Assembly (NCBI GenBank): GCA_033391075.1
Contig: JAWPMV010000001.1
Coordinates: forward strand, 4,154,001 to 4,218,000
Source of the DNA: Bacteroidia bacterium
GTDB lineage: Bacteria > Bacteroidota > Bacteroidia > J057
Direction of reading: 5' to 3'
Length of the DNA: 64,000 nucleotides
Shown here: positions 15,036 through 61,490 of the stretch, piece after piece
Layout: each line of letters starts with the position of its first letter
Numbering within the stretch: position 1 is the stretch's first letter
Notes under the pieces: model-generated
Database searches by the model: none
What the model was told of the DNA's origin: nothing
What the model saw: the letters and a program-made list of their open reading frames with translations, nothing else
Program-made: the position numbers and the translations under genes

Positions 15036-15581
15036 ATGACAAGATTGTTTTTAGGGATACCGATAAGTCCTTCCATAAAAGAGGAGCTTTTGCATTTTAA
15101 AGAAGCTCAAACTGCCTATACGGGAGTAAAATGGACAGCGGAAGAAAAGCTCCACATTACGGCATATTTTTTTGCAGAAGTGGCGGAAGAAATGTTAGAA
15201 AATCTAAAGTCGCTCCTTTACATTGCCCTAAAGGATCAATCTTCCTTTGACCTTGAATTTGAAAAATATGAGCTTGCTCCTCCCCGCCAAGCCGCACGCA
15301 TGATCTGGGCTCGTTTCAAAAAGTCTGAGCGCTTCATTTCCCTCCATGAAGAGGTACATGCCCTGTACAGCCAAATTGAAAAACCCATTCAAAGAAGGAA
15401 GAAACCGATTCCCCATATTACCCTTGCCCGTCTAAAGGATCAGGCTCCCAGAGAAAGGGAGGATTATACTTGGAAATATAGCTGTAAAGATTTGAGCGTA
15501 GATAAGCTTATTTTATGGCAAAGCAGTTTGCAGCCAGAAGGAAGTATATACGAAGCTTTAGAAGAATATACCCTCAGCTAA
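15036..15581 (+). CDS. thpR: RNA 2',3'-cyclic phosphodiesterase (2'-5' RNA ligase family)
   Basis: 181 residues from the ATG at 15036 (MTRLFLGIPISPSI), chosen over the ATG at 14988 because family members begin directly with the R-x-F-hydrophobic strand. The two HxTx motifs that define the 2H phosphoesterases are present: HITAYFF near residue 42 and HITLARL near 127. The enzyme opens 2',3'-cyclic phosphates at RNA ends; the in vivo role is unclear. It is convergent with the two-component genes. Confidence 0.85.
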   Translation: MTRLFLGIPISPSIKEELLHFKEAQTAYTGVKWTAEEKLHITAYFFAEVAEEMLENLKSLLYIALKDQSSFDLEFEKYELAPPRQAARMIWARFKKSERFISLHEEVHALYSQIEKPIQRRKKPIPHITLARLKDQAPREREDYTWKYSCKDLSVDKLILWQSSLQPEGSIYEALEEYTLS

Positions 15582-15597
15582 AGAGAAAATGCTCGCA

Positions 15598-16281
15598 TCA
15601 AGGGCATTTAAAACGAAATCCAATGCCATGCACATTTTCAATGGATAGTCGTTCATCAGCTTTCAGGTATTTTCTCAGTTTGGAGATAAATACATCCATA
15701 CTGCGCCCCAGAAAATAATCATCTTCTCCCCAAACTCCTTCCAGTATCTCCGCTCGCTTCAGGACTTGATTTTTTCTATTGTACAGAAACTTTAATACTT
15801 CTGCCTCTCTTTGGGTCAATCGCTGCTGTTCTCCCGCATGGCTCAGGTGCAGATTATCAAAATCGAAATCATAAGCACCTAATTTCAAGGAGCCAGGTCT
15901 GGGTAGGACTTGATGTTTGCTACGCCTCAAAAAAACCCGTATCCGCAGGATCAACTCTTCAATGCTGTAAGGCTTGGTTATATAATCATCTCCTCCCGTT
16001 TCAAAGCCCTTGATTCGATCCTCCTTTAATGATTTTGCTGTTAAAAAGATGATGGGTATTTGCTGGTCCATCTTCCTGATTTCTTCTGCTATGCTAAACC
16101 CATCCAATTCGGAAAGCATGACATCCAGCAGACAAAGATCAAAACTTTCTGCTTGAAAGCTTTCCAGTCCCATTTTCCCATTTTCACAATGACAAATCTC
16201 AAAGCCTGCCTGCTCAAGATTGTCTCGGGTTACAAAGGCCAGGCTTCGATCATCTTCCACATAGAGAATTTTTGCAGACAT
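15598..16281 (-). CDS. OmpR/PhoB-family response regulator
   Basis: 227 residues. Receiver domain 1-120 with the acidic pair ED (10-11), phospho-accepting Asp53 (LCLLDVMLSELDG), a conserved Thr (IFLTAKS) and Lys (ITKPYS). The winged-helix DNA-binding domain (~130-225) shows LTQREAEVLKFLYNRK and RSMDVFISKLRKYL. It follows its kinase gene after 3 bp. The TTAACA repeats upstream of the operon are a plausible binding site. Confidence 0.93.
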   Translation of the reverse strand: MSAKILYVEDDRSLAFVTRDNLEQAGFEICHCENGKMGLESFQAESFDLCLLDVMLSELDGFSIAEEIRKMDQQIPIIFLTAKSLKEDRIKGFETGGDDYITKPYSIEELILRIRVFLRRSKHQVLPRPGSLKLGAYDFDFDNLHLSHAGEQQRLTQREAEVLKFLYNRKNQVLKRAEILEGVWGEDDYFLGRSMDVFISKLRKYLKADERLSIENVHGIGFRFKCP

Positions 16282-57182: not shown

Positions 57183-58904
57183 ATGAGTCTTTATGACTGG
57201 TTGGTATTGCTCCTGTTTTTCGCCTATATGATTTGGGATGGGAGCAAAAGCCATAGAAAAAATAATGATCTGGAAGGGATGCTATTGGCCAAAAGGAGTA
57301 TGCCAGGCTGGGCACTTGGGCTTTCTATTATGGCAACTCAAGCTTCAGCCATCACCTTTATAGGCACAACTGGCCAGGCCTTTTTCTATGATATGCGATT
57401 TATCCAGGTCTATCTGGGTTTACCGCTGGCTATGATTGTACTTTCAGTTACCCTGGTTCCTTTATATAGAAGACTCAAACCTTTTACTGCCTATGAAGCT
57501 TTGGAGGAAAGATTTGGTCTGGAAGCCCGCCTGGCTACCAGTTTCCTTTTTCTCCTCTCAAGAGGTATTTCTTTGGGATTATCTATAGCTGCTCCAGCCT
57601 ATCTGCTCGCCTGGATTCTTCAACTTTCTTTGGGATGGACCATCCTCATCATCGGGATCAGTACTACAATTTATACCTTATATGGTGGACTGGATGGGGT
57701 TATTAGAACGGATGTAAAGCAAATGGCGCTCCTGGTATTTGGATTGATCTTTTGCTTTAGTTGGATCATTTTAAAATTGCCGGAAGAAATCAGTATAGAC
57801 AAAGCCCTTCACCTCAGTGGTGCGGCGGGTAAATTGAAAAGCATAGACTTCAGTCTTGACTCAGGAAATAAATATTCGGTGTGGAGCGGAGTTCTTGCAG
57901 GCTTCTTTCTGATGCTCTCCTACTTTGGGACAGATCAATCCCAGGTACAACGGTATCTCAGTGCAGCCAGTTTAAAAGATGCAAGAAATTCTCTCCTGAT
58001 GTCTGCAGGTTTAAAAATTCCCATGCAATTTTTCATCCTGCTTCTGGGGGCCTTTTTATACTGCTTCTACTTATTTGCTGATCGTCCCTTAATGTTCCTG
58101 CCTGACAGATTACATGCCGAGCAGCCAACAGAGATCATCACTCCCCGGGATGCAGAATTTCAGTGCATACATGATGCCCGGAGAGACGCAGCCCTGACAT
58201 ATGCATCCAATTTAGAAGATAAACATGCACGCAGCGATTTTCTCAAACTGGACAATCAGGCCAATAAGCTTCGCAAAACAGAAATGATGTATCTGGCAGA
58301 TAAGGAGCGAAACCTGAGAAATGACCTCAACTACGTCATGCCTTATTTTATCCTGCATGAACTTCCTCCCGGCATAATTGGATTGATCATAGCTGCCATA
58401 CTTGCTGCAGCTCTCTCCAGTATTGACAGTTCCCTCAATGCCCTGGCAACAGTCAGTGTAATTGATTGGTACCGGAGATTAAGAAAAAGGGAAAGAAGTG
58501 ATGCGCATGACCTCAAAATGACCCGATGGTTTACAGCTTTCTGGGGCGCTATTGCGACTTCTTTTGCCTTCCTCTTTGGGGAAACCGAGTCCATCATCGA
58601 ACTTGTCAATCAGATGGGGAGCTATTTTTATGGACCTATTCTGGGAATATTTATCCTCCTGGCCTTTAAAAATATTAAAGGCAGATCAGCAGTAATGGGA
58701 TTGGCAAGCGGTTTATTGGGGGTCTTTTTGATCGCAGGAATATTTGTAAATCGACTGGATGGAAGCCTGAGTTTCCATTTCCCCATAGGATTGATCCCTT
58801 TTAAATTCAGACCCTTGATTGAATACCTCTGGTTAAATCCCCTGGGCGTAAGTCTTACGGTTGGGACCGCCTTTTTCTACGATTTCGTCTTCCAAAAAGA
58901 CTAA
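57183..58904 (+). CDS. Sodium:solute symporter (SSS family)
   Basis: 573 residues with about 13 hydrophobic helices. SSS family features: GLSIMATQASAITFIGTTG, GGLDGVIRTDVKQ, and LSSIDSSLNALATVSVIDWY, the last close to the conserved sodium-site helix. A polar insertion of about 80 residues (~305-385) precedes the conserved helix. It uses the sodium gradient to import a small solute; sugars, amino acids or inositol are possible. It is near the glucuronate genes, but linkage to them is speculative. Confidence 0.9.
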   Translation: MSLYDWLVLLLFFAYMIWDGSKSHRKNNDLEGMLLAKRSMPGWALGLSIMATQASAITFIGTTGQAFFYDMRFIQVYLGLPLAMIVLSVTLVPLYRRLKPFTAYEALEERFGLEARLATSFLFLLSRGISLGLSIAAPAYLLAWILQLSLGWTILIIGISTTIYTLYGGLDGVIRTDVKQMALLVFGLIFCFSWIILKLPEEISIDKALHLSGAAGKLKSIDFSLDSGNKYSVWSGVLAGFFLMLSYFGTDQSQVQRYLSAASLKDARNSLLMSAGLKIPMQFFILLLGAFLYCFYLFADRPLMFLPDRLHAEQPTEIITPRDAEFQCIHDARRDAALTYASNLEDKHARSDFLKLDNQANKLRKTEMMYLADKERNLRNDLNYVMPYFILHELPPGIIGLIIAAILAAALSSIDSSLNALATVSVIDWYRRLRKRERSDAHDLKMTRWFTAFWGAIATSFAFLFGETESIIELVNQMGSYFYGPILGIFILLAFKNIKGRSAVMGLASGLLGVFLIAGIFVNRLDGSLSFHFPIGLIPFKFRPLIEYLWLNPLGVSLTVGTAFFYDFVFQKD

Positions 58905-59062: not shown

Positions 59063-59333
59063 GAGAATTAAGTCGTTTAGTAGGTAAAGCTTAATTCTCC
59101 GTTCTTTCCACACCTTCTGCAATTTCTATTCAACATCCGGCAATCATTTGCTGATCGTACATGATCAGATCGCCACATATATGTAGGCGTTGGATATCAT
59201 AGATACATTGAGTTTTGGGGAACGGACGGGGGAATAACGGGATAATAGAAAATTGCTTTAGGCCGGATGTCCCCTCGTCCCTTTAAAAAAGATAAAACCT
59301 CCACGTTGTTAAACGATGGAGGTTTCTTTTTTT
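59063..59333 (+). ncRNA. Structured RNA candidate with pseudoknot topology
   Basis: GAGAATTAAG (59063-59072) pairs perfectly with CTTAATTCTC (59090-59099). ACATCCGGC (59133-59141) pairs perfectly with GCCGGATGT (59262-59270). GGACGGGGG (59224-59232) pairs with CCCTCGTCC (59272-59280) with one G.U pair. The last two helices alternate in order, giving an H-type pseudoknot, or are mutually exclusive. Two local hairpins (59151-59168, 59171-59189) lie in the loop. A terminator closes the unit. No class recognised. The 5' end and promoter are not defined. Confidence 0.55.
59295..59333 (+). terminator. Strong intrinsic terminator
   Basis: AAACCTCCA (59295-59303) pairs with TGGAGGTTT (59317-59325), with an inner CGTT/AACG stem, followed by CTTTTTTT. 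It abuts the end of the first minus-strand 83-nt unit, whose T-run is the complement of 59334-59338. Confidence 0.9.
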
Positions 59334-59416
59334 AAAAACTAGGGGATTCAATCCCATTGGGAGAATCAACCCTAGCCCTTGCTCTTGTAATTCCAGGATT
59401 ACCGTCCTGTTATGAT
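59334..59416 (-). ncRNA. Small RNA candidate, copy 1
   Basis: 83 nt, identical to the unit at 59787-59869 at 81 positions. On the minus strand the 5' part can form CAGGA/TCCTG or GTAAT/ATTAC; the 3' part is a hairpin of CTAGGG/CCCTAG, GATTC/GAATC and TCCC/GGGA, followed by five Ts. The start of conservation lies 1-2 nt after a -7 box at 59418-59425. No open reading frame of note. Its function is unknown. Confidence 0.7.
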
Positions 59417-59417
59417 T

Positions 59418-59447
59418 CAAAATTAGTAGACAGACTCATGACTGCAA
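59418..59447 (-). promoter_or_regulatory. Promoter of small RNA copy 1
   Basis: On the minus strand TTG (59445-59447), 19 nt, then TAATTTTG (59418-59425), a perfect match to the Bacteroidota -33/-7 pattern. Confidence 0.7.
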
Positions 59448-59583
59448 GGCAAATTTCACTCCTTTAGTAACATACCCTCCCTCCTGGACAAAGCCTACGC
59501 ATTTAGTCAAATCCTTTCATACGAAAATTGGAAATATCTTCTTTTTGAGTGAAATACTTTCAGTTTTTCAAATTCCCAAGAGT

Positions 59584-59618
59584 CAAAAAAAATTGGGAGC
59601 AGAACTAAATCTGCTCCC
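59584..59618 (-). terminator. Isolated minus-strand intrinsic terminator
   Basis: GGGAGCAGA (59595-59603) pairs perfectly with TCTGCTCCC (59610-59618); on the minus strand AA and eight Ts follow. No annotated gene feeds into it. A possible structured transcript lies upstream (59660-59727), where GGCC/GGCC and TCTCTG/CAGAGA can pair. Confidence 0.75.
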
Positions 59619-59786
59619 TGAATACAAACCCCAATCAAAGGTTCATTTATCATTTACCAGGCCTGTATCTGCTCTCTGCTTATTTCAGTCAGCCTATCGA
59701 TGCTGCCCTATATAGCCCAGAGAGGCCTTTTTGTACTATAAATTTCTTGAATCGTGTAAAGGAAAGAATAAGAAAGGGGGTAAAGA

Positions 59787-59869
59787 AAAAACTAGGGGAT
59801 TCAATCCCTTTGGGAGAATCAACCCTAGCCCTTGCTCTTGTAATTCCAGGATTACCGTCCTGTTGTGAT
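59787..59869 (-). ncRNA. Small RNA candidate, copy 2
   Basis: Second copy of the 83-nt unit, differing at one loop base of the terminal hairpin and one base near the 5' end. The hairpin is followed by six Ts. It starts 1-2 nt after the -7 box at 59871-59878. That copies differ only in unpaired or terminal positions fits selection on structure. Confidence 0.7.
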
Positions 59870-59870
59870 A

Positions 59871-59900
59871 CAATGATAGGAAGATTCTTTGGTGCATCAA
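59871..59900 (-). promoter_or_regulatory. Promoter of small RNA copy 2
   Basis: On the minus strand TTG (59898-59900), 19 nt, then TATCATTG (59871-59878), one base off the TAnnTTTG consensus. Spacing is the same as in copy 1 although the sequence between differs. Confidence 0.6.
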
Positions 59901-60242
59901 GGTAGTTTTTACCTAAATGGTTACATAAAATACGCAGGATGTTTTTCTTCGATGTTGAACGGTTTTAGGCGGTTTTGGTCAAATTCCTACACCTGTGATG
60001 AAAAAAATACAGCAGGAATTGAGGAGTTCCCACAGGTCTTTATTTTGGGATTCCAAATTTTTATGCCGCTGAAAGGAAATACTATTGCCTTAAAGACTCA
60101 AAGATTATTCGGGACTCCAAACCCAGCTTAGATCTTTCCTTATTACTTAACCGACTTTCAGTAATATTTGCTGCTATTCTCATTATTTTTATTAATGGAA
60201 TATACACATATTGGATTAATAGGGAAATTATTCAGAAACCAA

Positions 60243-61490
60243 ATGAAAACGTCAGTTCTGATCATTCTCTTGCTCTCCACTCTCACATTCACCTTCTCTC
60301 AGGAAAGTGAAAAGAAAACATTACCGGATGTACACGATTACATAGCCGTAGATAAAGAACCACTTCCACTCAATCTTTATCTTGTTCAGGATAAAATAGG
60401 ATATCCTGTAAAAGCCTTAAAGAATCGGATCGAGGGAAAGGTATTTAGTCGAGTGCTTGTAAACACAGAAGGGGATGTCATACAATTCGTTCTCACTCGA
60501 AACGACCATCCTGTCCTGGGTGAAGCAGTAGAAGCTGAGCTCGAGTCTCTCCGCTTTCAACCTGCATATCTTGATGGGGAGCCAATAAACTATTGGACGA
60601 ATGTTCCATTCAAGTTTTACCTCAAACAGACCATAAATAGCCAGCCAAAAAAGCATAACTACCGAACGCTGGTTCAAAAAGTTTTCAAATCCAATCGCAG
60701 TAAGGCAGAACAACTGCTAACAGAAGGATTAGCCCTTTTTGAAAAGCGGGAGTACAAAATGGCTGGAAAGAACTTTAAGGAGTGTATCCAAAGAACTCCC
60801 AGGCAAAAGTCTAACAAAAGTCAGGAGATCCTGTTCCAGGCCCGATTGAACCTGGCACATGCCTATGTTCAATTGAAGAGTTGGGAATTTGCTGAAAGGC
60901 ACTATACAGAAGCCATTGGATTGGCTCGGGCGATCAAATCCTCTGAGGTCGTTGATCAACATATCTGCAGCGCTTATCTGGGACGGGCTTATAGTCTTTT
61001 AAAAGCAGAAGACTACCTACGTTCTATTACAGATTATAATCATGTGAGTCGTCATTTTGAAGATAGGCTGCTTAGTCAAAAGGAAGGACAGTGGAGTTTT
61101 CCTTTCCCCTGGAGGCAGGATTTGGATTGGGTGATGTATCAAAGAGGCCTGGTTTACTTTCAACTCAATAAAAATCAGGAAGCTATAGAAAACTTCCAGA
61201 AAGTTTGCGAGTTGGAACCAGCTTCCCGTTTACAGCTGGTGGCTTTAAGTCATATGGGATTAGCCCAAAGTAAAATGGGTGATTTTGAAGCAGCTTTCAA
61301 TAATATCCAGGCAGCCATCGAAATTGATGGGGATGATCCTCAGCCGTATTATTTCAAGGCAATGGTTTTGATGGAATTGGAAAGTCAGGACATGGCCTCT
61401 GACTTAATTCAACAAGCGCGAAAATTATTTGCAAAACTTGATGGAGACGGTAACGAAATCCCAAGCGCTTTTCCAGCCAATGAAGAATAA
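60243..61490 (+). CDS. Exported TonB-C-domain plus TPR protein
   Basis: 415 residues from the ATG at 60243, which begins a signal peptide (MKTSVLIILLLSTLTF, ending FSQ); an ATG at 60168 would bury it. A TonB C-terminal-type domain (~30-130; EGKVFSRVLVNTEGDVIQF, LESLRFQPAYLDGEPI) comes first and is followed by TPR repeats (~160-390), including ALFEKREYKMAGKNFKECI and AIENFQKVCELEPAS. This order is unlike a classic TonB, which has its domain at the C-terminus and a membrane anchor. Likely periplasmic. Function unknown. Confidence 0.75.
   Translation: MKTSVLIILLLSTLTFTFSQESEKKTLPDVHDYIAVDKEPLPLNLYLVQDKIGYPVKALKNRIEGKVFSRVLVNTEGDVIQFVLTRNDHPVLGEAVEAELESLRFQPAYLDGEPINYWTNVPFKFYLKQTINSQPKKHNYRTLVQKVFKSNRSKAEQLLTEGLALFEKREYKMAGKNFKECIQRTPRQKSNKSQEILFQARLNLAHAYVQLKSWEFAERHYTEAIGLARAIKSSEVVDQHICSAYLGRAYSLLKAEDYLRSITDYNHVSRHFEDRLLSQKEGQWSFPFPWRQDLDWVMYQRGLVYFQLNKNQEAIENFQKVCELEPASRLQLVALSHMGLAQSKMGDFEAAFNNIQAAIEIDGDDPQPYYFKAMVLMELESQDMASDLIQQARKLFAKLDGDGNEIPSAFPANEE

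Follow-up and report, generated by a model that had tools for sequence, protein, structure and literature searches.

What is encoded by two nearly identical blocks of 83 nt that lie close together on the minus strand, in a 64,000-nucleotide stretch of Bacteroidia DNA (hereafter the window)? The original prediction, made from the letters alone, held that they are a tandem pair of small RNA (sRNA) genes, each transcribed from its own promoter and ended by its own terminator. Here we compare the two units with each other, with the rest of the genome and with related genomes, and weigh what such an RNA might do.

Two S-type units in the window

The two blocks, 59334-59416(-) and 59787-59869(-), are referred to as copies A and B. 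They share 81 of 83 bases (97.6%), and an ungapped comparison of their flanks, taken over 100 nt on each side, gives identities of 36% upstream and 24% downstream, which bears out the view that these are near-identical units set in unrelated DNA. The features assigned to this region are as follows.

59334..59411, minus strand: S-type sRNA gene, copy A; ~78 nt, predicted start near 59411-59414 (from identity to copy B, promoter boxes, hairpins and U-tract)
59787..59864, minus strand: S-type sRNA gene, copy B; ~78 nt (same basis as copy A)
59418..59425, minus strand: -7 box of copy A, TAATTTTG; 6/6 fixed bases of TAnnTTTG
59445..59447, minus strand: -33 TTG of copy A; 19 nt between TTG and -7 box
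59871..59878, minus strand: -7 box of copy B, TATCATTG; 5/6 fixed bases of TAnnTTTG
59898..59900, minus strand: -33 TTG of copy B; 19 nt between TTG and -7 box
59394..59409, minus strand: 5' hairpin of copy A, CAGGA(CGGTAA)TCCTG; from folding, two pairs with compensatory change
59847..59862, minus strand: 5' hairpin of copy B; from folding and compensatory change
59376..59393, minus strand: single-stranded linker of copy A, GAATTACAAGAGCAAGGG, the presumed seed; from conservation
59829..59846, minus strand: single-stranded linker of copy B; from conservation
59339..59375, minus strand: terminator hairpin of copy A, with two bulges; U-tract at 59338-59334
59792..59828, minus strand: terminator hairpin of copy B; U-tract directly 3'
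60168..61490, plus strand: TonB_C/TPR gene, divergently oriented; in three other genera a related gene stands next to S-type copies or in their vicinity

As predicted, a -7 box and a TTG at the conserved 19-nt spacing precede both copies, and both end in a hairpin of three helical parts (CTAGGG/CCCTAG, GATTC/GAATC and TCCC/GGGA) followed by TTTTT. Each copy also contains the small additional 5' hairpin CAGGA/TCCTG, and their folding energies correspond to z values of about -2.7 to -3.1. No tRNA or tmRNA was found. The copies are not leaders of a gene, because the next minus-strand open reading frame of at least 60 aa lies more than 2 kb downstream, aside from an 88-aa frame that is antisense to a symporter gene.

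Two further hairpins were noted nearby. Between the copies and on the same strand, a strong extra intrinsic terminator (GGGAGCAG/CTGCTCCC followed by 8 T) occupies 59595-59618 (-); it may serve as a back-up for copy B, or it may end another small transcript within 59620-59786. Just below copy A, at 59293-59322, lies a terminator-like hairpin (AAACCTCCA/TGGAGGTTT) that is readable on both strands, ~390 nt past the symporter gene, whose end is at 58904.

A lineage-limited family of structured RNAs

The Rfam covariance models gave nothing at the gathering threshold in the window, and no match on the RNAs of eight loci at E values up to 1, so that the unit corresponds to no known family in these searches. 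The sole weak overlap (L001 1879-1985, E 0.43, 21 bits vs a gathering score of 86) is located upstream of, and partly between, the copies. A search of the whole genome with one unit identified five places. A covariance model (R1), constructed from an alignment of 39 distinct hairpins, raised the genome total to 27 hairpins, 25 of them outside the window, and a wider model (R2) agreed. The predicted pair is thus real as regards its two copies, but the term understates the size of the family, whose members in this genome are distributed as follows.

S-type genes (83 nt), three: the two in the window and a third at C1:7891386
T-type genes, four: 7900210, 7904344, 7904601 and 7904973; 5' end AACAGGTTAAAGTAAAGAAT
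U-type genes, two: 6369892 and 6743664; 5' end GGCATTACGCC
Tandem array, 18 units: 3469271-3470206; period exactly 52 nt

The hairpins of the four T-type genes (L180 11211 and 15345-16024) are identical; one gene lies behind a secA-like gene, and the other three stand in tandem beside a gene for a 1095-aa probable secreted protein.

The conserved core of the family has two elements: the single-stranded GAGCAAGGG, which is invariant or nearly so whether the form is S, M, T or array, and, after it, a terminator hairpin whose three helical parts are split by small bulges. This 3' hairpin is the only part common to all subtypes. In the 39-sequence set, 97.1% of cells are paired, both sides have changed in 9/15 pairs, and the covariation score was reached by 0/500 shuffles. 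A wide set of 19 sequences, to which distant members were added, is 99.3% paired with 9/16 pairs changed on both sides, and pairing falls to 27-59% in slid controls. The GAUUC:GAGUC helix is unbroken throughout, its U-G pair being usually kept, and is flanked by a 5' bulge of UU (sometimes UC or UA) and by 1-2 nt on the 3' side; as a result of these bulges, UUGA(U/G)UC tends to occur once per strand. In the tip stem the sequence varies freely but pairing is nearly always kept, and the S-type 5' hairpin covaries too. Judged from these alignments, the compensatory changes indicate an RNA for which structure is important. The alignments were collected by similarity, yet R1 recovered T-type, U-type and f50-type genes, none of which was used in its construction. 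We conclude that the units belong to a real, new and lineage-limited family of structured RNAs.

The check in other Bacteroidota genomes that the original prediction had called for yielded further members. The RNA is present in 13/13 sampled genomes of the host's family, with 1-48 hairpins each. Other families of the same order (f3, f5, f6 and f7) have 2-3 genes of the M type, a simple short form in which the promoter is followed almost immediately by GAGCAAGGG and the hairpin, and simple short versions also occur in two further families of the class. Family f46 has 2-4 copies and family f50 one or two; in f50 the hairpin core is retained but the linker is another one (AGCAGAGAGGCC), and 50 nt are nearly invariant between flanks that cannot be aligned. 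The 50-nt RNA gene of f50 often stands directly before a gene with a purD-like start (centre of L167-L177). Across the class Bacteroidia 28/395 genomes match, the RNA being absent from most, and a sample of the phylum returned this genome and three weak matches only (E 0.005-0.009; weak ones are excluded from the counts). In a scan of named genomes, true members were confined to metagenome-assembled Bacteroidota genomes, apart from one contig filed under Okeania hirsuta (L091, NZ_RCBY01000327.1). We read this cyanobacterial occurrence as contamination, because its array is followed by dynamin-like and SLFN_AlbA-like genes ordered as in this genome. Pattern matches in Proteobacteria and other phyla have no hairpin or U-tract and are ascribed to chance. 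Phage and plasmid records gave no match, and a virus or plasmid origin was rejected, the four IMG/VR pattern matches being without hairpin.

The family also permits the promoter assignment to be examined over many genomes. At least 5/6 of the TAnnTTTG bases are found at the expected distance in 56/70 single copies, as compared to 1-9% of control windows, and a perfect box in 32/70, as compared to 0-1.2%. The distance ranges were derived from the same genes as were tested; they are narrow, and the control windows were of equal width and located upstream. By type, boxes of at least 5/6 precede 27/37 S, 5/5 T, 2/2 U, 10/10 f50 and 12/16 M genes; the weak boxes of the remaining 10/37 S-type and 4/16 M-type copies are a point against our best explanation, given below. 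An intrinsic terminator, comprising the hairpin and a U-tract of at least 5 T, ends 58/59 of the single copies counted. A dispersed repeat lacking promoters does not describe these single copies, given how often the box is in place. The fixed promoter position, the compensatory changes and the lack of a close minus-strand gene downstream instead support, from sequence, the reading of the units as an independently transcribed, duplicated small RNA, which is the best available.

Tandem arrays of the 3' hairpin

Arrays of the hairpin were found in this genome (G000) and in five relatives (units x nt):

G000: 18 x 52
G003: 40 x 56
G006: 7 x 56
G004: 3 x 53
G005: 4 x 52
G008: at least 3 and 2 units of 58, at two contig ends

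The period is constant within a genome and mostly differs between genomes, a pattern expected from concerted evolution. Within arrays the tip stems vary in matched pairs (ATGC/GCAT and ACAC/GTGT in G000, three versions in G006), and the units are therefore selected as hairpins. Units abut directly, and the best box inside the G006 array reaches only 4/6. The U-tract inside arrays is 4-6 T long with a final A or CA, whereas that of single genes mostly has 5-10 T (mean T per 10 nt, 5.0 vs 8.4); single genes carry full terminators. Because the internal U-tracts are short and the arrays of G000, G004 and G006 each run into a separate strong terminator, the array is probably read through as one long multi-hairpin RNA. 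Folding the whole array gives one long duplex. We attribute this to the behavior of the energy model on repeats, given the near self-complementarity of the hairpin, and think it more likely that local hairpins form during transcription. Eighteen near-identical hairpins, and about 40 in a relative, suggest that the cell needs the hairpin in large doses.

The neighborhood suggests that single genes and arrays have a common origin. S-type pairs or triples diverge from a TPR/TonB_C gene in the window and in G003, and from a VWA gene in G004, G005 and G006, with a TPR gene behind it in G005 and G006. An array follows the S-type copies in G003, G005 and G006, and is itself followed by a dynamin-family gene in G005 and G006. 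The array and dynamin gene of G000 also lie together, but at a place other than that of the S-type pair. The gene that follows arrays in three genera encodes a LeoA/LeoBC-like dynamin-family GTPase (L007 4320-6047, L036 8820-10535 and L038 1029-2747). In G003, a 160-bp tandem repeat (4.3 copies; L039 5805-6499) lies directly beside the S-type triple.

Candidate modes of action and known systems

Our best explanation, to which we assign a probability of about 0.5, is that these are independently transcribed sibling sRNAs, which would use a conserved seed and share a 3' hairpin that binds a protein; the array would amplify their dosage or, as a multivalent RNA of the same sense, compete with them. 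Each window unit would have its own TAnnTTTG/TTG promoter, from which leftward transcription would yield an RNA of ~78 nt. This RNA is predicted to comprise a 5' hairpin, the single-stranded linker with GAGCAAGGG at its end, and the terminator hairpin with its conserved bulges and invariant GAUUC:GAGUC helix. The linker and the variable 5' parts would choose target mRNAs by pairing, and a common RNA-binding protein would hold the 3' hairpin. An RRM_1 protein is the likeliest partner, because the genome encodes five of these, no Hfq (0 found) and no CsrA (no PF02599 match); none of the genome's located RNA copies was seen beside an RRM gene. The array RNA would act as a competitor for the protein or the targets that the sRNAs use, or else serve as a precursor that is cut to give numerous short copies; being same-sense, it could not neutralise the sRNAs through linker pairing.

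The 12-nt complementary sequence CCCTTGCTCTTG has 46 genome sites with up to one mismatch, vs 29 for the reversed pattern, an enrichment that is not clear; of its five perfect sites, three are the RNA genes themselves and two lie inside open reading frames. This crude test gives no direct support to GAGCAAGGG as a seed, and for that reason an alternative stays close in which the RNAs are pure protein decoys, GAGCAAGGG being part of the binding site, the array the main sponge and the single genes weaker ones. Like CsrB and RsmZ, the array would place many hairpin modules on one RNA that could titrate a protein. The universal hairpin, with an invariant helix and bulges resembling a protein site, agrees with such a role, as do arrays that multiply exactly this module while shortening its U-tracts and a linker without target enrichment. 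The hairpins are, however, of another kind than those of CsrB and RsmZ, and the genome lacks CsrA, the one well-known protein of this sort; moreover, S-type 5' regions show more conservation between genera than a decoy would require, and the T and U subtypes have repeated 5' ends of their own. We consider a pure decoy somewhat unlikely.

A slightly less probable reading, which we regard as unlikely, is that the array is a source of monomers, its long RNA being cut in the U-rich joints into short GAGCAAGGG-hairpin RNAs equal to the M type, for pure dosage. The 52-58 nt unit does equal an M-type RNA in content and the joints are short and U/A-rich, but the units are without the S-type 5' hairpin; this reading can stand alongside what we think most likely for the single genes. 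Far less plausible is an antitoxin RNA of a type III toxin-antitoxin system, whose repeats would restrain a neighboring ribonuclease toxin. As in ToxI and CptI, directly repeated RNA modules precede a terminator and a gene, which is dynamin-like after the arrays of G000, G005 and G006. That neighbor is, however, a 575-aa dynamin-family GTPase (Dynamin_N, LeoA/LeoBC-like) rather than a ToxN-type endonuclease, of which none was seen beside the arrays; next to the G003 and G004 arrays no dynamin-like gene was found, the hairpins are not pseudoknots, and the family includes dispersed single genes, those in the window being without a toxin partner. Least credible of all is a mobile or satellite DNA repeat of the REP/BIME kind, since the imperfect palindrome, the many copies and the one Y1 transposase (Y1_Tnp) gene of the genome are outweighed by a promoter at fixed distance, compensatory changes, conserved 5' domains, and a small number of copies, none near the transposase gene.

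Multicopy sibling sRNAs are a known class. In Nostoc, the short NsiR1 (about 60 nt) occurs in 12 tandem copies, some identical and some diverged (PMC9045159), and it resembles the RNAs described here in being a short sRNA in tandem copies. NsiR1 has a promoter for each copy, a feature shared by the separated pairs and triples but not by the arrays, whose abutting 52-58 nt units have shortened U-tracts and no promoter each. In Bacteroides, the 14 paralogous FopS sRNAs consist of a single-stranded 5' seed and a terminator and are bound by the RRM protein RbpB (PMC11697453). Like FopS of Bacteroides thetaiotaomicron (PMC11697453), the family comprises multicopy paralogous Bacteroidota sRNAs with their own promoters and a single-stranded 5' part before the terminator hairpin, in a genome that encodes RRM_1 proteins. 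It differs in that a bulged terminator hairpin is the most conserved element, and in its S-type 5' hairpin, long tandem arrays and other lineage; the RNAs have no match among 4227 Rfam models, a set that may not include FopS. We therefore view FopS-RbpB as a precedent for the putative working mode and make no claim of membership.

To judge from the searches made here, hairpin arrays of the same sense, with weakened terminators, seem to be new. We tentatively propose, while doubting it more than we credit it, that they form part of a new system, in which dispersed sibling sRNAs would be balanced by a giant same-sense RNA, with 18-40 3' hairpins kept on one molecule by weakened terminators, that titrates or gathers a dedicated RNA-binding protein.

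To our knowledge, the small RNA biology of Bacteroidota has been little explored beyond gut Bacteroides. In a genome without Hfq, an RNA family whose structure is defined, and which comes in several 5' subtypes and as same-sense multi-hairpin arrays, offers a direct handle on the missing RNA chaperone; if the array is a titrator, it would be a CsrB-like device that evolved independently around another protein.
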